A DNA stretch of 64,000 nt, from the NCBI GenBank assembly GCA_947491945.1, contig CANLLN010000003.1:62001-126000 (forward strand), written 5' to 3'. The stretch's first letter is position 1. Each line of letters starts with the position of its first letter. Source of the DNA: an uncultured Carboxylicivirga sp. GTDB lineage: Bacteria > Bacteroidota > Bacteroidia > Bacteroidales > Marinilabiliaceae. The notes beneath the pieces are model-generated. The model saw only the letters and a list, made by a program, of their open reading frames with translations, did not search any database and was not told the DNA's origin. The translations under genes were made by a program, and so were the position numbers. This document shows positions 46,011 to 63,292 of the stretch, one piece after another.

Positions 46011-49000
46011 CTATTTTTCCGCTGCCCAGCGTCTGCGGCTTTGTTTATACTGACCCGGCGACATGTCAAATTCCTTTTTAAAGCTCTTAATAAAATAAGA
46101 GCTGCTGTTAAACCCAACTTTGTAGGCTATCTCACTTACCTGGTCATCAGTGCAGATTAGTTTAGCTGCTGCTTCTTTGAGTCGCACTGTGCGAATAAAA
46201 TCTGTGCCTGACTTGCCCGTTAGCGCTTTAATCTTACGGTGCAGATGGCTGCGACTCATCCCCAGCTCGTTACCCAGCTCTTCCACACCAAAGGCTTCAT
46301 CGGCCATATTAGCTCTTACAATGTCGAGGGTATTACTGATAAATGCCTCGTCAACTGAAGTGGTGGTTATTTCCGATGGCAACACAATGGCTTTACCCAT
46401 AAATATTTCCTGCAACTTCTGTCTTCCTTTCAGAAGATTGTCGATATAGGCAAGCAGTACATCAGGGTTAAAAGGTTTGGGAACATAAGCGTCGGCTCCG
46501 GTGTTAAGTCCTTCTATACGATTCTCGACCGACGCCTTGGCTGTTAACATAATTACTGGGATGTGACTCGTTTGTAGGTTAGTTTTAATGGCCTTGCACA
46601 GTTCAATGCCATTCATCACTGGCATCATCACATCTGTTAGTACCAGGTTAACCGTACGTCTTTCCAGTATGTCGCAGGCAGCCTGTCCATCCGAAGCCTT
46701 CAGCAGATGATAGTAGGGCGAAAGCAAAGTTGTAAGGTATTCCAGTACTTGAGGATTATCATCCACAATCAGAATTTTATGCTTGCTTTGGTCGATGTGT
46801 TCCAGGGGTATGGCCATATCAGAAGGAACATCGTCAGCTGCTATGGTAATGGGTGCCTCTGTGTTCGTCCCATTTTGGTGCAAGGGACTGTTTAATACGG
46901 GTATACTTACCGTAAAGCAGGTTCCAATGCCTTTTTCTGAAGTAACAGTAATTTGGCCGCCATGCAACTCCACCAACGATTTGGTAAGCGCCAGACCAAT
47001 GCCCGTACCACTTACATTACGTGCCCCCTGATGAAAGCGTTTGTATTGCTTAAAAATATCGTTTGCGTTGGCACTATCAATGCCCTCACCATCGTCTTTT
47101 ACTTCTATCAGCAGTGCCTGTTTCTCCATGGCATCATTATGCGCAAATGAAATGTTTAGTGACACATGCCCGTTTGTTTTACCATATTTAAAGGCGTTGG
47201 AAAGCAGGTTGTAAACCACCTTTTCTACAATATCATCATCAAACTGAAGGGTAAGGGTGTTGATGCTGCTCTTGATTACAAACTGCATGTTGCGCTCCTG
47301 TGCCATATAGCGAAATGACTCACCACATTCGCGGATGCAGGCAATGATATCGCCCTCTTTTATGTTGAGCTCCATGGCGCCCGTCTCTACTTTGCGGAAA
47401 TCCATAACCTGGTTAATCAGGCGCAGTAGCAGGCGAGTGTTTTTGTGGGCGATATTAAATAGCTTCTCCTCTTCATCGTTCAGTTTCAGCCTTTTTTTTA
47501 AGGATTCCAAGGGTGCCGATATGAGCGTTAAGGGTGTCCTGAACTCATGTGATATATTGGTAAAAAACTGCATGCGTAGGTGGTTTAGCTCATTAATTTT
47601 CTCCCTTTCAAGCACCTCGAACTCCAGTTTTCGTTTCAAGTCCATCCACAATACAGTATAGCGGATGTAGGCATACATCATCCCAACAATAATAATCAGA
47701 TAGGCCAGGTAGGCATACCAGCGTTTCCACCAAGGTGCCAGTACTTTTATTTGCAATGTAGTGTCTGAGGTGGTCCATACTCCATCGTTATTGGCAGCTT
47801 TTACTTTAAAAATATACTCACCTGCTTTTAGGTTATTGTATTTTACGCGTCGGTCGGTGGTGGGTTTACTCCATTCTTCCGACGAGTTTTCGAGCATATA
47901 ACTGTATACATTTTTCTCCGAGATAAAATAATTGATGGCAACAAACTCAATGCTTATGTTGGACTGGTTGTGTTTTAAGACAATGGATTGCGTGTTGGCA
48001 ATATTTTGTTTCAAGGGGCTATTCTCCTCGCCTGCTTTCACCGGACTGTTGTTAATATACAGCTCAGAGAGCAATACTTTGGGCACCTTATTATTAACTT
48101 TAATAACCTCGGGGTTGAATCTGTTAATACCACGTACGCCACCTACTAATAGTTGTTTGTTGCTAGTGTAAAGTAGTGCATTAAAGGTGCTACCTACCAG
48201 TCCGTCGCGGTTATCGTAGTTCTGAAAACGGCCGGTCTCCACCTCATATTTCGAAAGGCCGCCATGGCTTGCAAACCAGAGGATTCCCGGGTGTACTTCG
48301 GCGATGTCGTAAACCTGCTCCTGTGCCAGTCCATCGTTAATGGTCAGGTTGGTAATGGCTTCGTTGGTAGGATCTATTTTAAATATTCCTCCGCCATTGG
48401 ATCCCATCCATATATTACCGTTGCTACTCTCATTAATGCACAGAATAGCATTTTTTCCCACTCCGCTGTCGTTCAGCTTATCAAATAAATAGCATCGGTA
48501 AGTCTTACGGTTAGCATGCCAAAGGTAAATACCATTACTGGTGCCAATCCACAAATTATTTTTGGAATCCACAAACAGGCTCAGGATATATTCGTTCATC
48601 TGCTCATCGAGCTCAGGAAAGATATCGCTCAAGGCAGTAAAAACCTTGGTTTGGGTATCAAATTGGTACAGTCCATTGCCCAGGGTACCCACCCACAGCT
48701 TGTTGTCATCCTGCTGAGCCAGCGACCATACCGAAATGGATAACGGGCCATCATTTTGTTCAAGGGCAGGGTTATGTGTGATGAGTTGGTCACGCTGCTC
48801 GTCAAGCTGTGCCAGTCCGCTGCCATAAGTGCCCAGCCATATTGTACCTTTATTGTCTTCAAAGATGCGTTTTATAACGTTACTCTTTAGGTTTGATGCA
48901 ATCCGGTTATAGCGTTTAAAGGTTTCCTTTTCAGGGTTAAAAAGATTTAAGCCGCCTCCATCGGTGCCCACCCATATTCTGTTTTTTGAGTCTTGCAACA

Positions 49001-50093
49001 GACTTAGTACCACATTATCACTTAGGCTCTTAGGTAAATGATCCTGGTGAACGAAATGCTGAAAGCGGTTACGTTCCGTATTAATAATGCGTACCCCTTT
49101 GCCAATGGTTCCTACCCAGTACAAGCCGTTGTTGTCGATATAGGTTGTAAAAACAGCTTTAGTATCCAGTTGTGCAAGGGCTTTGTTATGATCTTTATCT
49201 TTGATTATTACTTTCCTTAAGGGATCGATATTGACAATACCGCCACCATCAACGGCTGCCAGCAGCGTACCATCTTTGTTAATGCCCAGGGACATTATAA
49301 TATTGAGTGAAGTGCCGTCAGCATTTGTATGCCCCACAAAGCGTTCATACTCCCTGGTCATCTTGTCGAAACGGTACAGTCCCATATTATCGGTGGCAAT
49401 CCAGATATTACCATTGCCATCGTCCAGCAGGTCATTGATCTGCATGGTAGGAAAGCGATAGTTAATAAAGGCATTATTTTGAGTGTCAAATAAACTTAAG
49501 CCTTGTCCGTAGGTGCCCAGCCATAAATTACCGTCAGATCCCTCACAAAGGGCATTTACCATATTAATGTAATTGCCTAAGGAGTCATTTTGGGCAAAAG
49601 ATTGAAAGGTGTTGTTGGTGTGATTGTAGTGATGTAAACCACCACCCATAGTAGCAATCCAAAGTCTGTTTTTCTTATCGAGTATCAGGTCGCCAATGTG
49701 GTTGTCGCGCAGGCTGGTTCCCGACTGTTCATCGGCCCAGAAACGTGTGAATTTTTCGGTGTCTTTATCCCGCACGTTTAAACCAAACTTGGTGCCCACC
49801 CATAAATCTCCGTTGTTGTCCTCCTGCAGGCAAGTGATAAAATTACTGCTTAGGGTACTTTCATCTTCCGAGATACTGAAATAGGTGTTTACCTCATAGC
49901 CGTTGTAGCGGTTAAGACCATAATAAGTGCTGATCCACATATAGCCATGTCGATCCTGCATAATCTCATTCACCGAGTTGTTACTTAGGCCATTTTCAGT
50001 GTCCAGTCCACTGAAATAGTAGGGCTGTGTTTGAGCAGACAGCGTGGGTGCATATAAAAAATATACAAGTAGGATTAGGATTGTATAGCGCAT
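46011..50093 (-). CDS. Hybrid two-component system regulator (HTCS)
   Basis: This one-protein signalling system typical of Bacteroidota usually senses a glycan fragment in the periplasm and switches on a nutrient-uptake operon. The 1360 residues have a signal peptide (1-20), then two seven-bladed propellers' worth of Reg_prop repeats (about 22-690, recurring DNNGDLWVGT-like units). A Y_Y_Y domain (about 715-780) and a membrane segment near 787-808 follow. The kinase has His849 in NISHEFRTPL, the N-box NLLSNAFKYG and the G-box GTGIGLALTKSL. The receiver domain has Asp1154 in LTDVMMP. A C-terminal AraC-type helix-turn-helix (about 1255-1355) includes the IAYKVGFNSSSYFIKSFKKEF motif. All phospho-relay residues are intact. 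The nearest SusC gene is about 4.6 kb away on the opposite strand. Confidence 0.96.
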   Translation of the reverse strand: MRYTILILLVYFLYAPTLSAQTQPYYFSGLDTENGLSNNSVNEIMQDRHGYMWISTYYGLNRYNGYEVNTYFSISEDESTLSSNFITCLQEDNNGDLWVGTKFGLNVRDKDTEKFTRFWADEQSGTSLRDNHIGDLILDKKNRLWIATMGGGLHHYNHTNNTFQSFAQNDSLGNYINMVNALCEGSDGNLWLGTYGQGLSLFDTQNNAFINYRFPTMQINDLLDDGNGNIWIATDNMGLYRFDKMTREYERFVGHTNADGTSLNIIMSLGINKDGTLLAAVDGGGIVNIDPLRKVIIKDKDHNKALAQLDTKAVFTTYIDNNGLYWVGTIGKGVRIINTERNRFQHFVHQDHLPKSLSDNVVLSLLQDSKNRIWVGTDGGGLNLFNPEKETFKRYNRIASNLKSNVIKRIFEDNKGTIWLGTYGSGLAQLDEQRDQLITHNPALEQNDGPLSISVWSLAQQDDNKLWVGTLGNGLYQFDTQTKVFTALSDIFPELDEQMNEYILSLFVDSKNNLWIGTSNGIYLWHANRKTYRCYLFDKLNDSGVGKNAILCINESSNGNIWMGSNGGGIFKIDPTNEAITNLTINDGLAQEQVYDIAEVHPGILWFASHGGLSKYEVETGRFQNYDNRDGLVGSTFNALLYTSNKQLLVGGVRGINRFNPEVIKVNNKVPKVLLSELYINNSPVKAGEENSPLKQNIANTQSIVLKHNQSNISIEFVAINYFISEKNVYSYMLENSSEEWSKPTTDRRVKYNNLKAGEYIFKVKAANNDGVWTTSDTTLQIKVLAPWWKRWYAYLAYLIIIVGMMYAYIRYTVLWMDLKRKLEFEVLEREKINELNHLRMQFFTNISHEFRTPLTLISAPLESLKKRLKLNDEEEKLFNIAHKNTRLLLRLINQVMDFRKVETGAMELNIKEGDIIACIRECGESFRYMAQERNMQFVIKSSINTLTLQFDDDIVEKVVYNLLSNAFKYGKTNGHVSLNISFAHNDAMEKQALLIEVKDDGEGIDSANANDIFKQYKRFHQGARNVSGTGIGLALTKSLVELHGGQITVTSEKGIGTCFTVSIPVLNSPLHQNGTNTEAPITIAADDVPSDMAIPLEHIDQSKHKILIVDDNPQVLEYLTTLLSPYYHLLKASDGQAACDILERRTVNLVLTDVMMPVMNGIELCKAIKTNLQTSHIPVIMLTAKASVENRIEGLNTGADAYVPKPFNPDVLLAYIDNLLKGRQKLQEIFMGKAIVLPSEITTTSVDEAFISNTLDIVRANMADEAFGVEELGNELGMSRSHLHRKIKALTGKSGTDFIRTVRLKEAAAKLICTDDQVSEIAYKVGFNSSSYFIKSFKKEFDMSPGQYKQSRRRWAAEK

Positions 50094-53996: not shown

Positions 53997-54267
53997 GCAT
54001 TGCAGGTGGTGTGGTCAATGCAGTAAAACATTGATGCCTTATTTCCAATAGGATTAATGGGTTAACGGTAAGCTGAAATATTATTTCAAACGATTTTGAG
54101 ATATCCCTAGTGTAATCGAACATAAAATTAGCAATCACAGCACGGCTGAATTTGAAATGCGATTGCCTTGGCCTTTCAGTTGAGGGTTTATTTCAGATGA
54201 AAGCGCTAAGCTTGTGGCTCAATCCTCCTAACTTGCAGATTTATTTATTTTACAATAATTATTGCCG

Positions 54268-54296
54268 GCAGCACCTGATTAGTGCTGCTTTTTTAT
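54268..54296 (+). terminator. Terminator before the first Sus operon
   Basis: GCAGCAC (54268-54274) pairs perfectly with GTGCTGC (54282-54288), loop CTGATTA, then TTTTTTATTT. It lies 270 bases after mtaB, so it ends either a long 3' UTR or an unseen small RNA. Confidence 0.85.
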
Positions 54297-54430
54297 TTAG
54301 TACACCCTTCTTTTTGTTAGGTAAGCGCAACGGTTTCCTCATTACTTCGTCTGCCCTTGGTGATTAAAATGTCAATTTTTGTAATTCTTATAACCTTTAT
54401 TAAGGCCCGTATAGCGTGGTTTTGCAACAA

Positions 54431-54457
54431 TAGTACAACATTAGTACAATAGTACAA
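54431..54457 (+). promoter_or_regulatory. Triple TAGTACAA direct repeat upstream of susC1
   Basis: Three exact copies of TAGTACAA at 54431-54438, 54442-54449 and 54450-54457, about 63 to 89 bases upstream of the -7 box. This is the expected position and form of an activator site. The half-site GTACAA reappears before the second Sus operon. Confidence 0.6.
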
Positions 54458-54519
54458 TCGCTTTGTTAAAAGTTCTATTTTTTACAACCTCTGTTTTATT
54501 ATCTCATGCGAACAGCTGT

Positions 54520-54527
54520 TAGATTTG
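54520..54527 (+). promoter_or_regulatory. -7 promoter box of the first Sus operon
   Basis: TAGATTTG matches TAnnTTTG and lies 22 bases before the ATG of the 45-residue gene. The -33 region has no TTG, which fits a promoter that needs an activator. Confidence 0.65.
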
Positions 54528-54548
54528 CCGGTGTAAAAATTCAATATT

Positions 54549-54686
54549 ATGAAAGTATCAATGAGCAATAGCGATAAGCCATCAAGTATCAAGCAAGAGG
54601 CGCGGCGGTATTTATTAATACGCAGTGTCCTCGTCGTGCTTTTGCTGCTAATGGTCATTCTACTATTATTATTAACGTTTTTTTAA
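54549..54686 (+). CDS. Small single-pass membrane protein (45 residues)
   Basis: This short gene sits between a consensus promoter box and susC1. The 45 residues have a polar N-terminal part (MKVSMSNSDKPSSIKQEARRYL) rich in Lys, Arg and Ser, then about 20 very hydrophobic residues (SVLVVLLLLMVILLLLLTFF) running to the C-terminus. This gives a single-pass, tail-anchored membrane protein with a basic cytoplasmic part under the positive-inside rule. It ends 35 bases before the susC1 start, so the two are probably cotranscribed. A second Met at codon 5 is a possible start. I know no named family. It could be a regulator or assembly partner of the SusCD system, but no function is assigned. Confidence 0.65.
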   Translation: MKVSMSNSDKPSSIKQEARRYLLIRSVLVVLLLLMVILLLLLTFF

Positions 54687-54721
54687 ATATCATGTTAACT
54701 AATCATCAAATTCAACTCTTT

Positions 54722-57700
54722 ATGAAAAGACGATTTAATTGGTTTCAAAGAGGACTCATGGGAGCGTTTATGCTACTGTTATCAGTAGGCGTTGCTTTTG
54801 CCCAGGAGCTTACTATTAGCGGTACCGTGAAGGGTGCCGAGGATGGATTACCCATACCGGGTGTGTCCGTTATTGAAAAAGGTACTACTAACGGTACCAT
54901 TACCGACATCGACGGTAAGTATCAAATTACCTGCCCAACAGGAAGTGTCGTGGCTTTCTCGTTTGTGGGTATGAAACCTCAGGAAGTAACGGTGGGAAGC
55001 CAAACCACTATTAACATTACCCTGCAGCCCGATGCCATCGAAATGGAAGGTGTTGTGGTAACGGCCCTGGGTATCAAGCGCGAAGAAAAATCCCTTGGAT
55101 ACGGAGTGTCAAAAGTTGACAGTGACGAGATACAAGCTGCCGCCGGTAGTGACGTGCTCAGTTCAATGCAGGGTAAAGTGGCTGGTTTAGATTTAGGTTC
55201 ATCACAAGGTGGACTTGGTTCTTCTAACCGTGTAGTACTTCGTGGTAACAGCTCTATTTCTGGCAATAACCAGCCGCTTTATGTGGTTGATGGTGTTCCG
55301 GTGAATAATTCAACAGTCGAAGAGTCGGCTGGTGTTTGGGATAGAAAAGATTTTGGATCAGGCTCTATGGATATCAACCCTGACGATATCGAAAGTGTTA
55401 CTGTTCTTAAAGGTCCTAATGCCGCTGCCTTATATGGTTCTCGTGCCCAGAATGGTGCCATTATTATTACGACAAAATCAGGTAAGAAAGGGCAAGGTCT
55501 TGGTGTAGAAATTTCTACTTCCAATATGTTTGACGTGGTAACTGATCAATATTTGCCAAAGGTTCAAAATAAATATGGACAGGGTAGTTATGTAGATAAT
55601 GTACCAACCTATTCTACTTCAGTTACTGATGATAGTTGGGGGCCAGCTATGACCGGACAGACTTTTCCATCATGGAGTGGGTTCGAAGATAATTTAACGT
55701 ATTCTCCACAACCCAATAATCTTAAAGATTTCTTTGAGACCGGTTTTAAAACAACTAATACAGTTGCTTTAACCACTGGTGGTGAAAATGGTTCGTCTCG
55801 TTTTTCGTATACCAATTTGTATGGTAATGGTATTGTTCCGGGTAATGAGCAAATGCGTCATAATTTCAATATCAGAACGCAATATGATTTAGCAGATTGG
55901 TTACGTGTAGATGCGAAAGCTAACTACATCAATCAGGAGATTGAGGGTGGAACCTGGCTGGGAGAAGGTAGTAGTAATGCTGTTTATGGCTTATTTACTC
56001 TTCCTCGTAATACTAACTTAAACGAGCTTAAGAAATTTAATTATAAAAATTCACCGAATGATCCTTTTGTCGGAACCCAAATGAATCCATATTGGACAAC
56101 TTTGCACGATAATATGATTAACAAAAAGGATCGTTTAATTGGATTTGTTAAGTTAGACTTTGATATTACAGACAACTTGTCTGGTTTTGTTAGAGCAGGT
56201 ACCGATTATACGAATAATTCTATTGAAGAGCGTTATAATCTTGGACATAAGCAAAGTAAATCGGGTCAGTGGATTATGAACCAGTACATGCGTCGTGAAT
56301 CTAACTTTGATGCTTTACTGAGCTATAATAAGCGTTTTGGAGAATTAGACCTAGGTGTAAACGTAGGTGGTAACATCATGAAAAACCTAAGCCAGGCAAC
56401 TTATAACCGTGGTGATGATGTTATATCTAATGGTTTTTGGAATATCCAGAACTATCTGAATAAGAATGCAAGCTATAATATTTACGAAAAGCAAGTTAAT
56501 TCGGCCTATGCTACTCTTAATTTGGGCTATAACAACTTCCTTTATTTAGATGCATCTTTCCGTAATGACTGGAGTTCTACATTACCTGAGGAAAACCGCT
56601 CATATTTCTACCCTGCTGTTTCGACAAGTATTTTGCTGAATGAAGTCCTGGACATGGGCGATGTAAACCTTTTAAAAGTACGTGTTGGCTATGCTGAAGT
56701 AGGAAATGATTCTGACCCATACCGTTTAGCAACAACATTTGGAGTTAATCCTTTATTAGATCATAATGGCATTCCTTTAATGGATGTTGATGGAACACCT
56801 GGTGTACCAGATCTAAAGCCCGAAAGGACGGGGTCGATAGAGTTTGGTGTTGATTTCAGAGCATTTAATAATCGTGTATTTGCCGATTTCAACTACTATT
56901 CGCAGTCAACTGAAAACCAGCTTTTCACAACGAGAGTATCTTCAGCCACCGGCTATGTTAACAAGTACTTGAATGGTGGTGATGTAGTGAATAGCGGTTT
57001 CGAAGTTTCTATTGGTGGTATCCCAGTACAGACAGGTTCTTTCGAATGGGAAACAACCTTAACATTAGCCCAAAACACAACTGAAGTAAAAGAGTTAGCA
57101 GACGGATTAGATACACAAGTATTGGCCGACTTAGGAAACATAGTTGGTGGTGTACAGATTGTTGCTAACAAAGGTAAAAATGGCTATGGTGTTATTATGG
57201 GTATGCCAGCTAAAGTTAATGGCGAGTATCAGTTAGGTAATAATGGTTTCCTACCGGGTAATGATCGTGTTGAGCTTGGTAATTTTACCCCTGATGCAAC
57301 TTTTGGTTGGTTAAATACCTTCTCTTACAAGCGTTTAAACTTCAGAGCTTTAATTGATGGTAAAATAGGTGGTGATGTGATGAACGCTACAAAAGGAGAT
57401 TTGACAGCGAAGGGGATCACAGAAAACACATTGGAATATCGTGAAGGTGGAATTGAAGTTTCGGGCATAAATGCAAATGGTGAGCCAACTACTGTAACCA
57501 TGAATGCGCAATCATATTGGGGTGGTTTGGCTAACTATGGTGAGCCTTGGGTAGTTGATGCTACGAACGTTCGCCTGCGCGAATTGAGTTTGGGCTACAA
57601 CTTTAAGTTAAATCCTGATTTCTTTATCAAAAACTTAAGCGTCAACTTTAACGCTTATAACCTATTCTTTATATATCGTGATGAAGATGCCAAGGATATC

Positions 57701-57802
57701 GATCCGAATCAAACCTGGGGTACAGGCAACGCACAAGGTTATAACTTATACAATGTACCTTCTACAACCTCTTATGGTTTCACTGTTAACGTTAAGTTTT
57801 AA
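54722..57802 (+). CDS. susC: SusC/RagA-family TonB-linked outer-membrane protein 1
   Basis: SusC proteins are 22-strand barrels that import large nutrients with a SusD lid and TonB energy. From ATG 54722 the protein has 1026 residues; the frame is open further up, but the signal peptide (1-28, VAFAQ) starts here. A CarboxypepD_reg-like domain follows (about 30-108, LTISGTVKGAEDGLPIPGVSV). The linker VVVTALG (111-117) precedes the plug, with the SusC motif LSSMQGKVAGLDL and VLKGPNAAALYGSRAQNGAIIITTKSGK. The barrel ends in an aromatic residue (VNVKF). Base composition falls from about 50% G+C near the plug to about 33% in sampled barrel lines. A SusD gene follows after 20 bases. Confidence 0.96.
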   Translation: MKRRFNWFQRGLMGAFMLLLSVGVAFAQELTISGTVKGAEDGLPIPGVSVIEKGTTNGTITDIDGKYQITCPTGSVVAFSFVGMKPQEVTVGSQTTINITLQPDAIEMEGVVVTALGIKREEKSLGYGVSKVDSDEIQAAAGSDVLSSMQGKVAGLDLGSSQGGLGSSNRVVLRGNSSISGNNQPLYVVDGVPVNNSTVEESAGVWDRKDFGSGSMDINPDDIESVTVLKGPNAAALYGSRAQNGAIIITTKSGKKGQGLGVEISTSNMFDVVTDQYLPKVQNKYGQGSYVDNVPTYSTSVTDDSWGPAMTGQTFPSWSGFEDNLTYSPQPNNLKDFFETGFKTTNTVALTTGGENGSSRFSYTNLYGNGIVPGNEQMRHNFNIRTQYDLADWLRVDAKANYINQEIEGGTWLGEGSSNAVYGLFTLPRNTNLNELKKFNYKNSPNDPFVGTQMNPYWTTLHDNMINKKDRLIGFVKLDFDITDNLSGFVRAGTDYTNNSIEERYNLGHKQSKSGQWIMNQYMRRESNFDALLSYNKRFGELDLGVNVGGNIMKNLSQATYNRGDDVISNGFWNIQNYLNKNASYNIYEKQVNSAYATLNLGYNNFLYLDASFRNDWSSTLPEENRSYFYPAVSTSILLNEVLDMGDVNLLKVRVGYAEVGNDSDPYRLATTFGVNPLLDHNGIPLMDVDGTPGVPDLKPERTGSIEFGVDFRAFNNRVFADFNYYSQSTENQLFTTRVSSATGYVNKYLNGGDVVNSGFEVSIGGIPVQTGSFEWETTLTLAQNTTEVKELADGLDTQVLADLGNIVGGVQIVANKGKNGYGVIMGMPAKVNGEYQLGNNGFLPGNDRVELGNFTPDATFGWLNTFSYKRLNFRALIDGKIGGDVMNATKGDLTAKGITENTLEYREGGIEVSGINANGEPTTVTMNAQSYWGGLANYGEPWVVDATNVRLRELSLGYNFKLNPDFFIKNLSVNFNAYNLFFIYRDEDAKDIDPNQTWGTGNAQGYNLYNVPSTTSYGFTVNVKF

Positions 57803-57822: not shown

Positions 57823-59568
57823 ATGAAGATATTTAATAAATACATTTTAGTTGGTTTGGTGGCTTTGACAAGCTTCAGTTGTACTGATGACTTCGATGAA
57901 ATGAACACAAACCCAAACTCTCCTTCTGCCGATAATCCTGCGACGGAAGCTGTATTGGCTAGCTCAATGCGCAAAGCCTTTCATGAAGATAGATTTGAAT
58001 TTTGGCGGGGTGTAGTCCTTCATGCAGAACGTTTTGCCGGCCATGTTGATGGTGGTTATAACGGATGTTGGTGGGCACCCGGTAATTCTTATGATTATAA
58101 CGAAGGTTGGACTGCCGCAGCCTGGGATTCCTATAACTCATCATCGTTTACAAACGGTTATGGAGGAGCTTTATTTGCGAATACCAATGTACTTTTAAAT
58201 TACTATGAAGAGAATCCTGAAGCGCCCTACGCCAAAGAATTCACAGGTATTTGCCACGTACTACGTTCGTTCCAGTTCTTGAAAATTACTGATCTGTTTG
58301 GCGACACGCCCTACTCAGAGCACGGTAATATTGATATTCCAACACCCAAGTTTGATGCTCAGCAGGCCATCTATGATGATATTGAAGCAAAACTTAAAAT
58401 GGTTGTGGAGGAAAACTTTGCCGATGATGTTACTATCGGAACCATGAATAAGTACGACTTAGTGTACAAAGGCAATATTAGCAAGTGGAGAAAATTTGCA
58501 AATTCTTTACGTTTACGTATGGCTCTTCGTCGTTCTAATGTCGATAGCGAAGGTGCAAAAGCCATACTCGCAAATATTGTGCAGTATCCACTTTTAGAGA
58601 GTAATGAAGACAATGTAATGGTTGAGCGCACAAAGTCGTCAACAGACTTGCACAACCAATACTATGGATTCTTTAAAACGTGGCCAGGCGCTATGCCTAA
58701 TGGCTCATATACCTGGGATGGTTATGTAACTGAGTGGGCTCCGGGTCCCGGTGCTTTTGTGCCCGCCCGTGAAATTATTGAGGTGATGAAAGGAAACGCC
58801 TTATATGCAGCTGAGGTTAAGGATGGAGGTTCCGCTACCGAGGATATTAATGCAGTATCCGGCATTTACGATCCACGAATGGAGAAGTATTTCATGCGTC
58901 CTAAAGGTGATGTTACGGCAGAACACAAAGGACGCCCTGCACGTGCCGAATATTTCCTAAAAGATGGTGTTATATCCAGTATTCAGAATGATGCTATTGA
59001 AGGAGATGTACATAATTACTCCTGGATGCACCCATCAATCTGGTATGATGGTGGTACCTGGAATCCCGTTAGCTTAGATTATGCTGAAGTGTGTTTAGCA
59101 TTGGCAGAAGCTGTTAATAGAGGTTTAGTAAGTTATGGTCAGTCTGATGCTGACTTACTAAAGGCCGGGCTTGAAGCAAGTTGTAAGCGTTGGGGTGCAG
59201 ATGTTGGTACTTTTGCCGATGATGTTGTAGCTAAGTTTAACAGTGCTGATGCAGAAGGACAAGAAGCGATTATTGCTACTGAGCGTTGGGTTTCTGCTTA
59301 TACTGTTCCGCACCAGGCCTACTCAGTATTACGCCGTACAGGTCATCCTGAGTTTGTGTATCTTGACAAGGACAGAACAATCACTGGTACCTGGGTTAAG
59401 CCTGATGGAAGCACTGAGACACGTACCATTGAGAAGTATGCTCAAGGTAGCACCAACTTTAAGTTACCACAGCGTATGCGCGTTCCGGAAAGTGAAGTAG
59501 CCATTAATAACAATGTTCCGGAAGAGAACAAAAGCATGGTTAACAAAGTATGGTGGGCCAAGCGCTAA
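57823..59568 (+). CDS. susD: SusD/RagB-family surface lipoprotein 1
   Basis: SusD-like lipoproteins bind the nutrient on the cell surface and close over the SusC barrel. The 581-residue product has a lipoprotein signal with Cys20 (LTSFSC), followed by TDDFDE. Acidic residues just after the Cys are the Bacteroidota surface-export signal. The body is of the SusD-like 2 type (SusD_2 family, often peptide or glycan binding), with FLKITDLFGDTPYSEHG, KWRKFANSLRLRMALRR, PLDYAEVCLALAEA-like stretch SLDYAEVCLALAEAVNRG, and the C-terminal RWVSAYTVPHQAYSVLRRTGHPE. It follows susC1 by 20 bases and is followed by a terminator. The ligand is unknown. Confidence 0.95.
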   Translation: MKIFNKYILVGLVALTSFSCTDDFDEMNTNPNSPSADNPATEAVLASSMRKAFHEDRFEFWRGVVLHAERFAGHVDGGYNGCWWAPGNSYDYNEGWTAAAWDSYNSSSFTNGYGGALFANTNVLLNYYEENPEAPYAKEFTGICHVLRSFQFLKITDLFGDTPYSEHGNIDIPTPKFDAQQAIYDDIEAKLKMVVEENFADDVTIGTMNKYDLVYKGNISKWRKFANSLRLRMALRRSNVDSEGAKAILANIVQYPLLESNEDNVMVERTKSSTDLHNQYYGFFKTWPGAMPNGSYTWDGYVTEWAPGPGAFVPAREIIEVMKGNALYAAEVKDGGSATEDINAVSGIYDPRMEKYFMRPKGDVTAEHKGRPARAEYFLKDGVISSIQNDAIEGDVHNYSWMHPSIWYDGGTWNPVSLDYAEVCLALAEAVNRGLVSYGQSDADLLKAGLEASCKRWGADVGTFADDVVAKFNSADAEGQEAIIATERWVSAYTVPHQAYSVLRRTGHPEFVYLDKDRTITGTWVKPDGSTETRTIEKYAQGSTNFKLPQRMRVPESEVAINNNVPEENKSMVNKVWWAKR

Positions 59569-60166: not shown

Positions 60167-63100
60167 ATGAAAAGAACAGTAAGTTGGTTAAAGAGGTGTT
60201 TGTTGGTGCTACCGGCCTTCCTCTTGGGTACCCTGGTGTACGGCCAAAATATTAGTGTTACCGGTACGGTAACGAGCTCTGAAGATGGATTACCCATACC
60301 GGGTGTTTCCGTGGTTCAAAAAGGAACGACCAACGGTACCATCACCGATATGGACGGACTATACAACATTCAGGTGCCCCAGGGCAGTACCCTGATATTC
60401 TCTTTTGTGGGTATGGGCTCTCAGGAGGTGCTTATACCATCGGCCGGTACTTACGATGTGAGTTTGACATCGGAAACCGAAGGACTCGAAGAAGTGGTGG
60501 TTACTGCTCTGGGTATCAAGCGGGAACGTAAGGCACTTGGTTATGCCATTCAGGAGGTAGATGGAGAAGCCATTCTGGAATCACGCGAAGCTAACGTAGC
60601 TAACTCCCTCAGTGGTAAAGTGTCGGGCTTGCAGGTAATAAAGTCAAGTGCAGGACCCGCCGGATCATCAAAAATAGTGCTGCGGGGTAATAGTTCATTA
60701 ACAGGTGATAACCAGCCGCTGATAGTTGTGGATGGAATTCCTATTGATAATTTCACCGGTGCAGACAATAACGATTACTGGAACCCATCGCCCGATATGG
60801 GTAACGGACTAGGTGATATTAACCCCGACGATATTGAAAGTATGTCGGTATTGAAGGGAGCCTCAGCAGCTGCCCTTTATGGATCGCGTGCGGGTAATGG
60901 AGTAATTTTGATTACTACCAAATCAGGTAAGAAGACTGATGGTCTGGGTATCTCAGTGTCTGCTACCTATGGTTTTGAAACGATTTTCACTAATCCTGAG
61001 TTGCAAAGCAGCTTCGGACAGGGTAGCCGTGGTATCTTTGACGAATTAAGCACTGGCAGCTGGGGACCAAAAATCGAAGGACAAGAGGTAACCAAATGGG
61101 ATGGCACGCAAGCTCCCCTGATGGCCTACGATAATGTTAAGAACTTCTTCGATACCGGAATAACACAGGATTATAATGTGTCTTTCCAGCAGCAGTACGA
61201 TCGCACTTCGGTGTATACCTCGTTTACTCACAAGGATGATAAGAGTATGATACCGGGTGCTAAGTTGCAGCGTACTAACTTATTGGCTCGTGCAACTTCC
61301 AAGTTTGGTCCCGATGAGCGCTGGACACTGGATACCAAAGTACAATATGGTAGTACCACGGCTAAAAACCGTCCCCTGTTGGGAGCCAATGCTTCCAATG
61401 CCTATTATACCATGTATTCTTTACCCATTTCATTAGATATTCGTGACTTTGATCCGCCAGCTGATGAGTCAGGTAATATGATTTGGTACGGGGGTGGAAG
61501 TCAGGTAAACCCTTATTGGAATGCCAGGTACAACCTTAACGAGGACTCACGCGACCGTTTTATCTTGCACGGCTCGTTAAAATACCGTTTTACCGATTGG
61601 TTAAACGCTGAGATTAAAGGCGGATCAGACCGCTACACCACGAATACGGAGACCAAACTCTACGATGGTAGTCCACTAGCCAATGGCGGACGCTATAGCC
61701 TGGGTAAGCGTGTGTTCTACGAAAACAACTTCAGTGCGCTGGTAACGGCTTCTCAGGATAATCTCTTTGGTAAAGTGGGTGGCTCACTCATGTTGGGAGG
61801 TAACCTGATGAAACAGCATAATTCTGGATTGTCCGGTAGTTCAGGTGAATTGGAAGTACCCAATTTATTCTCCTTAAATAATGGAGTAGATAATCCAACA
61901 ATCAGTGAGACTTTCAGCGAGCGGAAGATCAATTCAGTGTATGGTAATGTGCAGCTGAATTACGATGGCTACCTGTTTCTGGAAGGAACCTTCCGTAACG
62001 ATTGGTCTTCAACCCTTAGCAAGGATAATCGATCCTTCTTCTATCCTTCGGTAACAGCCTCTTATGTGATAACTGATATGTTGAATAAGTCAGGCGCAAT
62101 GGTTCCCACATGGTTAACTTTTGCCAAAGTAAGGGCTTCCTATGCCGAGGTGGGTAATGACCTACAACCCTATCAGCTGTATAATACCTACTGGATAGGG
62201 AAAGACCCCAGTGGCGATACAACCGCCGGCGCTGGAACTACATTATTTGATTCGACTGTTCGCAGCGAGTTGATTAAATCCTATGAAATTGGTGCCGAGC
62301 TACGCCTATTCCAAAACAGGCTGGGTATTGATTTTGCCTGGTACAAATCCAATGCAACTCGTCAGTTGATTGACCTGCCCATGGACCCAATGAGTGGTTA
62401 TGAGCGGAAAAAGATCAACGCAGGTGATATTCAAAACAAGGGTGTTGAGCTAATGCTGCATGGAGACTTGCTCAGAAGTAGCACAGGTCTTAACTGGGAC
62501 ATGCAAATCAACTACTCGAAAAATGAGAATACTATTGAAGAGCTGGCTGAGGGTGTAGAGCGCTATAAGTTAGGTGGTTATGATAATGTGTTGATTGATG
62601 CCACAGTGGGCGGTATGTACGGAGAGATATATGGTACTTCCTTCTTACGTGTTACTGATGAAGAAAGCGAGCATTATGGACGTTTGTTGTTGGATGGTAA
62701 TGGTTTGCCACAGGAAGATGGTGAGGTCAAGAAGCTGGGTAATCAGCAGCCCGATGCCATGGTAGGCTGGATCAACAACTTTAGCTATAAGAATTTGAGT
62801 TTGAGCTTTCAGGTGGATGGTCGCTTTGGTGGCGAGATCTTCTCGGGTACCAACCTGGGCTTGCAGAGAGCCGGTACAGCCGATGTAACCGCACCCGGTG
62901 GAATGCGCGAAGATATGGTAGTTGATGGCGTGGTGATGGATGGTGATAATTACATCGAAAATACCACATCTATTTCAACACAAGATTACTGGAATGCTGT
63001 TACCGGACCCGGTAACCTTGGTATTACAGAGGCCAATATCTACGATGCTACCAGTGTGCGACTGCGGAATATTCGCCTCAGTTATAATTTGCGCGGTGGA

Positions 63101-63292
63101 ATTCTGGAGAATACCCCCATTAAGCGCATGAAACTGGGCTTCACCGTTAATAATGTATGGCTGATTAAGAGTCATTTAAAGGGTGTTGACCCCGAATCGG
63201 TTTATGCCACAGGAACAAACGCAGTAGGTTTCGAAAATGCGGCTCCTCCAACATCACGTACCTATATTTTTAACCTGTCGTTGGACTTTTAA
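60167..63292 (+). CDS. susC: SusC/RagA-family TonB-linked outer-membrane protein 2
   Basis: A second nutrient-import barrel of 1041 residues. A signal peptide (about 1-27, LVYGQ) is followed by the CarboxypepD_reg-like domain (about 30-105, VTGTVTSSEDGLPIPGVSV), the VVVTALG linker (110-116) and the plug, with NVANSLSGKVSGLQV and VLKGASAAALYGSRAGNGVILITTKSGK. The barrel ends IFNLSLDF. It is clearly paralogous to susC1 in the N-terminal third, including a 23-base identical DNA stretch, but the barrel differs, so the two should take different substrates or forms. Sampled base composition (48% G+C) is higher than in the susC1 barrel. The susD2 start overlaps the spacer 6 bases after its stop. Confidence 0.96.
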   Translation: MKRTVSWLKRCLLVLPAFLLGTLVYGQNISVTGTVTSSEDGLPIPGVSVVQKGTTNGTITDMDGLYNIQVPQGSTLIFSFVGMGSQEVLIPSAGTYDVSLTSETEGLEEVVVTALGIKRERKALGYAIQEVDGEAILESREANVANSLSGKVSGLQVIKSSAGPAGSSKIVLRGNSSLTGDNQPLIVVDGIPIDNFTGADNNDYWNPSPDMGNGLGDINPDDIESMSVLKGASAAALYGSRAGNGVILITTKSGKKTDGLGISVSATYGFETIFTNPELQSSFGQGSRGIFDELSTGSWGPKIEGQEVTKWDGTQAPLMAYDNVKNFFDTGITQDYNVSFQQQYDRTSVYTSFTHKDDKSMIPGAKLQRTNLLARATSKFGPDERWTLDTKVQYGSTTAKNRPLLGANASNAYYTMYSLPISLDIRDFDPPADESGNMIWYGGGSQVNPYWNARYNLNEDSRDRFILHGSLKYRFTDWLNAEIKGGSDRYTTNTETKLYDGSPLANGGRYSLGKRVFYENNFSALVTASQDNLFGKVGGSLMLGGNLMKQHNSGLSGSSGELEVPNLFSLNNGVDNPTISETFSERKINSVYGNVQLNYDGYLFLEGTFRNDWSSTLSKDNRSFFYPSVTASYVITDMLNKSGAMVPTWLTFAKVRASYAEVGNDLQPYQLYNTYWIGKDPSGDTTAGAGTTLFDSTVRSELIKSYEIGAELRLFQNRLGIDFAWYKSNATRQLIDLPMDPMSGYERKKINAGDIQNKGVELMLHGDLLRSSTGLNWDMQINYSKNENTIEELAEGVERYKLGGYDNVLIDATVGGMYGEIYGTSFLRVTDEESEHYGRLLLDGNGLPQEDGEVKKLGNQQPDAMVGWINNFSYKNLSLSFQVDGRFGGEIFSGTNLGLQRAGTADVTAPGGMREDMVVDGVVMDGDNYIENTTSISTQDYWNAVTGPGNLGITEANIYDATSVRLRNIRLSYNLRGGILENTPIKRMKLGFTVNNVWLIKSHLKGVDPESVYATGTNAVGFENAAPPTSRTYIFNLSLDF

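Follow-up and report, generated by a model that had tools for sequence, protein, structure and literature searches.

The window (the whole 64,000-nt stretch analysed here), from a marine Bacteroidales bacterium, carries a small open reading frame (sORF) at the head of a SusCD operon. The regulator nearest to this operon is a hybrid two-component regulator (HTCS). The features are as follows.

46011-50093, minus strand: HTCS with Reg_prop propeller, Y_Y_Y, HisKA, HATPase, receiver and AraC-type HTH domains
54267-54289, plus strand: terminator-like hairpin that follows the upstream mtaB-like gene and sets it apart from the sORF operon
54425-54478, plus strand: operator-like direct repeats CAACAATAGTACAA, CAACATTAGTACAA, then TGTTAAAAGTTCTAT, presumed to be the HTCS binding site
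54520-54527, plus strand: sigma-ABfr -7 box TAGATTTG, the sole TAnnTTT[GA] box within 200 nt upstream of the sORF
54549-54686, plus strand: sORF, gene for a 45-aa small membrane protein (by translation, homologues, selection and an AlphaFold2 model)
54687-54721, plus strand: spacer with the conserved susC leader element, TTAACTAATTCC-AAAATTAAACTCTTT in relatives
54722-57802, plus strand: susC1, SusC/RagA TonB-linked outer-membrane protein (TIGR04056)
57823-59568, plus strand: susD1, SusD-like_2 (PF12771)
60167-63292, plus strand: susC2, with no membrane sORF ahead

The hairpin closes the mtaB-like gene, and the sORF therefore starts its own transcription unit. The operon runs sORF, susC1, susD1, susC2 and susD2, followed beyond the window by tdh (threonine dehydrogenase), a gene for a 401-aa protein and one for an M49 peptidase. 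This cargo points to peptide or amino-acid use. A sequence-only reading of this DNA had described a 45-residue frame, basic then hydrophobic, with a consensus promoter box upstream, an end 35 bases before susC1 and no counterpart before susC2. Translation confirmed the frame and its layout. The box proved to stand 21 bases ahead of the ATG, 35 bases separate the stop from the likely start codon of susC1 (ATG at 54722), and susC2 has no membrane-type small frame in front of it. Not all relatives retain an alternative in-frame ATG of susC at 54692. Two further observations concern the surroundings. A transthyretin/HIUase-family protein (PF00576, 50211-50612) is encoded divergently from the HTCS, 118 bases from its start. 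Upstream of the sORF, a sub-threshold Rfam match to GcvB (54085-54296; E 0.046, 21.1 bits with a cut-off of 42) takes in the hairpin behind mtaB and is probably due to chance.

The sORF on the plus strand translates as MKVSMSNSDKPSSIKQEARRYLLIRSVLVVLLLLMVILLLLLTFF, 45 residues followed by a stop. The product is predicted to consist of a basic N-terminus of about 20 residues and a single membrane helix that reaches the C-terminus, with a hydropathy of 3.48 over 19 residues. An AlphaFold2 model shows a single helix at residues 11-44 (mean pLDDT 82). The product is rich in leucine, contains no cysteines and has almost no residues beyond the helix. A C-terminal hydrophobic helix with a basic N-terminal side is the mark of tail-anchored small membrane proteins, and this predicted location, together with the model, leads us to infer an inner-membrane protein with a cytoplasmic N-terminus and a membrane-anchored tail. 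Searches of Pfam and NCBIfam with the product gave no family match.

The family and order were searched first with the single sequence and then with a profile, which identified sORF homologues in 12 of 71 Marinilabiliaceae genomes, with profile E-values of 1e-18 to 1e-26. They occur in ten of the 14 genomes of Carboxylicivirga, the genus of the window, and in one genome each of two other genera. All 12 lie upstream of a susC and on its strand, and the sORF is single-copy and tied to one operon. The order-wide profile search (393 genomes) yielded weak matches only, and those inspected did not adjoin a susC. Compared with its six closest relatives, the sORF has pN/pS values of 0.14-0.21 at pS of 0.76-0.92, at which synonymous sites are saturated. 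Over nine sequences the mean pN/pS was 0.27 in frame, while the two remaining forward frames gave 0.93 and 3.8. Conservation thus lies in the peptide rather than in the nucleotides, and this check, which the sequence-only reading had named as a possible refutation, supports it. The peptide is under strong purifying selection, and the sORF is, with near certainty, a real and conserved protein-coding gene. In the membrane part I24, R25, L28, L31, L32, L38, L39, L40 and L42 are invariant, and conservation along the helix is periodic near 100 degrees per residue, which outlines a helix face (permutation p about 0.003-0.01). The conserved residues include the cytoplasmic part as well as this face.

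Type I toxins have a size and hydrophobicity similar to those of the sORF product, and a toxin-like membrane peptide of this type would fit in these two respects. However, no conserved promoter box for an antisense RNA was found on the opposite strand at the sORF loci, and a DonS-like antisense RNA was rejected for the same reason; the Rfam search gave no match at the sORF itself; and the operon position of the sORF is constant. A chance or decaying frame is excluded by the purifying selection on the peptide. Taken together, a toxin or a chance frame is very improbable.

We then considered how the sORF would be transcribed. A single TAnnTTT[GA] box lies within 200 nt upstream of the sORF at all 12 loci. 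In Flavobacterium the -7 box occupies -12 to -5 (PMC6847099; PMC9723704), and the window sORF would on this basis be transcribed from about 54532 with a predicted leader of 17 nt. The gap between box and ATG is only 5 bases at seven of the 12 loci, which with the box at -12 to -5 gives a predicted leader of about 1 base, so that the sORF transcript is predicted to be leaderless in these seven genomes. Few transcripts in the phylum are leaderless or have a very short leader (about 4-6%; PMC9723704). Three sORF copies start with TTG, and each has a longer leader, with 41-87 bases between box and start; this fits the expectation that a leaderless copy needs ATG.

Repeats such as CAACAATAGTACAAT and TGTTAAAAGTTCTAT precede the -7 box at the sORF loci. 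TGTTAAAAGTTCTAT occurs exactly once per genome in the nine peptide-bearing genomes scanned and is absent from two genomes without the HTCS. In Bacteroides, the sites of HTCSs consist of direct repeats with an average spacing of 21 bp (PMC3878776). Autocorrelation of the operator region peaked at 19-20 and 41, as well as at 8 and 11, and a clean 21-bp period was dropped because the peaks do not fall cleanly at 21. The spacing is compatible with an HTCS-type site but does not prove one.

The position of the sORF between promoter and susC raises the alternative that it is a translational leader: its translation would open the susC start, 35 nt downstream, or couple to it, and the product itself would matter little. 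In favor of this, the spacing between sORF and susC is short and fairly constant, about 29-38 nt at 11 of the 12 loci and 29-36 nt at most of them. A 26-nt susC leader element (54699-54724; CTAATTCCAAAATTAAACTCTTTATG in relatives) is also conserved, even across exchanged SusC genes, and at two mismatches it was found solely at peptide-linked susC genes. It is possibly a translation-start element or an sRNA target. Conversely, the spacing at the remaining locus (G007) is about 460 nt, and amino acids are conserved beyond the frame as such, in the cytoplasmic part and on the helix face. Moreover, susC2 and most other susC genes manage without a sORF. No terminator-like site was found between 54686 and 54722, and the RNA from frame to susC has only a weak consensus structure (-3.65 kcal/mol). 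A translational leader is therefore unlikely, and attenuation was rejected since neither a terminator nor alternative hairpins lie between sORF and susC.

We compared the distribution of the peptide with those of the HTCS and the transporter. The 12 genomes (of 71) with an orthologue of the HTCS (at least 51% identity in the sensor half) are exactly those with the sORF; the next-best HTCS is at 35%. The two are on different contigs in G005 and G007; this is also the case in G003, where the sORF lies near a contig end. In the two non-Carboxylicivirga genera the HTCS lies directly upstream of the sORF. SusC, on the other hand, has been exchanged behind the sORF. It is 83-92% identical to that of the window in six genomes and 37-41% identical in five, with a mosaic in G012 (62% identity up to residue 287, about 40% for the whole protein). 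For the sORF, pairwise distances correlated with those of the HTCS at r 0.86 versus r 0.54 for the SusC behind it, the former correlation being in part plain vertical inheritance. G004 has the SusCD-tdh-401-M49 (DPP3) operon, with a SusC about 50% identical, and lacks both the HTCS orthologue and the sORF. These distributions suggest that the sORF goes with the HTCS rather than with the transporter behind it, although a single lineage that inherited these genes together, as one set, could show the same co-occurrence.

The SusCD genes form an exchangeable body behind a constant head of promoter, sORF, susC leader and SusC signal-peptide region (54520-57802 in the window; L085, L091 and L100). 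The tdh and 401-aa genes are constant behind the exchanged body, giving the picture of a transporter-swapping locus. We also looked at the membrane segment of the HTCS, where conservation might have been a sign of peptide contact. This was dropped because the segment is not unusually conserved, with a mean pairwise identity of 0.64 versus 0.75-0.89 in the flanks.

Frames of the same design were found at other HTCS operons. In the genome of the window, three more susC genes near HTCSs have one (C36, 42 aa; C29, 41 aa; C1, 35 aa), and searches with two of these peptides gave weak matches that were also HTCS- or susC-linked. The great majority of susC genes in this genome, susC2 included, have no such frame ahead. 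G003 has a 41-aa frame of this kind before a susC, and G010 and G012 have a 37-aa frame between HTCS and susC. In three genomes of a third genus, a nearly identical 39-aa frame with a pN/pS of about 0.1 lies between HTCS and susC. G006 has a second HTCS with a 37-aa frame behind it and then a catabolic operon without SusCD. At this locus (L246:5388-9383 and beyond, on C140) the frame is followed by genes for an AraC regulator, an aldehyde dehydrogenase, a permease and an enolase-type protein. Within the family, all seven tandem HTCS-susC junctions contain such a peptide. In one genome of another family of the order (G401, about 0.8 Mb sampled), the one tandem junction has a 37-aa frame. Here (L249:19080-19480), the HTCS is followed by MKTENEIHEMMRRVRKARFVVLGILFCLVALLLFFLL and then by susC, and repeats of the CAATGG/CAATAG type lie upstream. 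TATATTCG ends 4 nt before the ATG, so that this frame may be nearly leaderless too.

We surveyed gaps for frames of 30-62 aa with a tail helix and a basic N-side, covering the 71 family genomes through targeted searches and fetched loci. Such frames were present in 10 of 21 gaps before susC genes within 10 kb of an HTCS, in 2 of 21 before other susC genes (at both loci the HTCS was elsewhere or not seen), in 5 of 304 before other genes and in 1 of 282 without a same-strand gene. Gaps before susC genes near an HTCS thus differ from those before other genes (Fisher p 3e-10) and before other susC genes (p 0.015), though six of the ten frames near an HTCS are orthologues of the window sORF and the independent number is smaller. 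In a tree of HTCS cytoplasmic regions, peptide-bearing HTCSs fell into two clades with support of 0.999 and 1.000, plus one that was weakly placed; unlabelled HTCSs lay outside the peptide clades, though only part of these were checked at their own target operon. The peptides of different HTCS operons differ in sequence and share a loose look, such as SSIK before the helix in the window family and G006, and are grouped by design, not by homology. One tandem HTCS-susC junction of Bacteroides finegoldii has no such frame, showing that HTCSs need no such peptide in general, and universality in gut Bacteroidales was dropped on this ground. Eight more susC genes of Bacteroides, Parabacteroides, Segatella and Persicobacter, none adjoining an HTCS, also lack one.

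These results bear on whether the peptide serves the transporter, acting on SusC export, barrel insertion or TonB/ExbBD coupling. All 12 orthologues lie upstream of a susC, as a SusCD helper would. However, the sORF is kept where SusC has been exchanged, down to 37% identity; the second G006 locus combines an HTCS with a like peptide and no SusCD; the SusCD operon of G004 has no peptide; and most susC genes of the same genome do without one. We consider a SusCD helper unlikely. The sequence-only reading had offered three roles, of which assistance in barrel assembly is weakened by the co-occurrence with the HTCS, the swapping of SusC and the G006 operon. The same three observations make modulation of the regulator the best supported. 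The third idea, a mark of operon-specific control, is right as to the single copy tied to one operon, but that reading had missed the recurrence of the design, with different sequences, at further HTCS operons.

The choice of nutrients that Bacteroidota take up rests with HTCSs, and the usual description has each of them complete as a single chain. The patterns above suggest that such one-piece sensors can have a small membrane partner, and the sORF product is probably partnered with the HTCS, judging from the genomic comparisons. By analogy, we give about an even chance to the more specific reading that it is an inner-membrane protein, induced together with the operon, which partners its HTCS and exerts feedback on it in the manner of MgrB on PhoQ. 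The HTCS would sense its signal and switch on the sORF operon, and the peptide would be produced with the first transcripts. Its conserved helix face would then pair with a membrane or juxtamembrane segment of the HTCS, and the paired peptide would tune the regulator. The feedback may be negative, a direction that we prefer tentatively because the peptide would be the product of a target gene of its own regulator.

Small helical membrane proteins have many targets. The sORF product could thus act on another one in the inner membrane, such as a protease, a transporter or lipid, and merely be co-induced by the HTCS. Most small membrane proteins have no known function (PMC8534201). Such a target alone would not account for a design that follows particular HTCS clades and varies from one HTCS to another, and we regard it as rather unlikely.

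Extending the reading of the sORF product as an HTCS partner, certain Bacteroidales HTCS clades might not be single-polypeptide sensors. They would have their own tail-anchored subunit, encoded by the first gene of the operon, in some cases leaderless, that feeds back on or insulates them. This generalization is speculative, though far from negligible. If true, a small and easily missed HTCS partner at the operon head would add a layer of control, and such partner peptides would explain part of the overlooked coding space just before susC genes. The design rule (HTCS, a 35-45-residue frame with a basic part and a tail helix, target operon) can be searched across the phylum, and the association of peptide and HTCS is directly testable in cultured Carboxylicivirga.

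Finally, we compared the sORF with known systems. The neighbouring regulator is a standard HTCS of Bacteroidota, and direct repeats similar to those of the operator have been reported as the sites of such regulators (PMC3878776). We found no description of a small membrane partner of HTCSs in the open-access papers searched. Like leader peptides and attenuators, the sORF is a short frame between promoter and operon that is rich in one amino acid, leucine. Unlike in attenuators, its peptide sequence is conserved, and terminators or alternative hairpins are absent. SafA, UgtL and MzrA are small inner-membrane connectors that act on sensor kinases, activating PhoQ or EnvZ (PMC8534201). They resemble the sORF product in being small inner-membrane proteins, but they act mainly through a periplasmic part, which the sORF product lacks, and link two systems, whereas the sORF product goes with a single regulator. 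MgrB, 47 aa long and encoded by a target gene of PhoP, represses PhoQ by contact through its membrane helix (PMC8534201). The sORF product does not belong to the MgrB family proper, as it has no two-cysteine periplasmic region and no Pfam or NCBIfam match. It further differs in having almost no periplasmic part and no cysteines, in that it would pair with a one-piece, beta-propeller HTCS, and in that the sORF heads the main operon while the MgrB gene stands alone. The two are alike in size, in their single membrane helix and, by prediction, in a cytoplasmic N-terminus, and the sORF, too, may be under the control of the sensor that its product would regulate. By this analogy, it is plausible that the sORF product works like MgrB.
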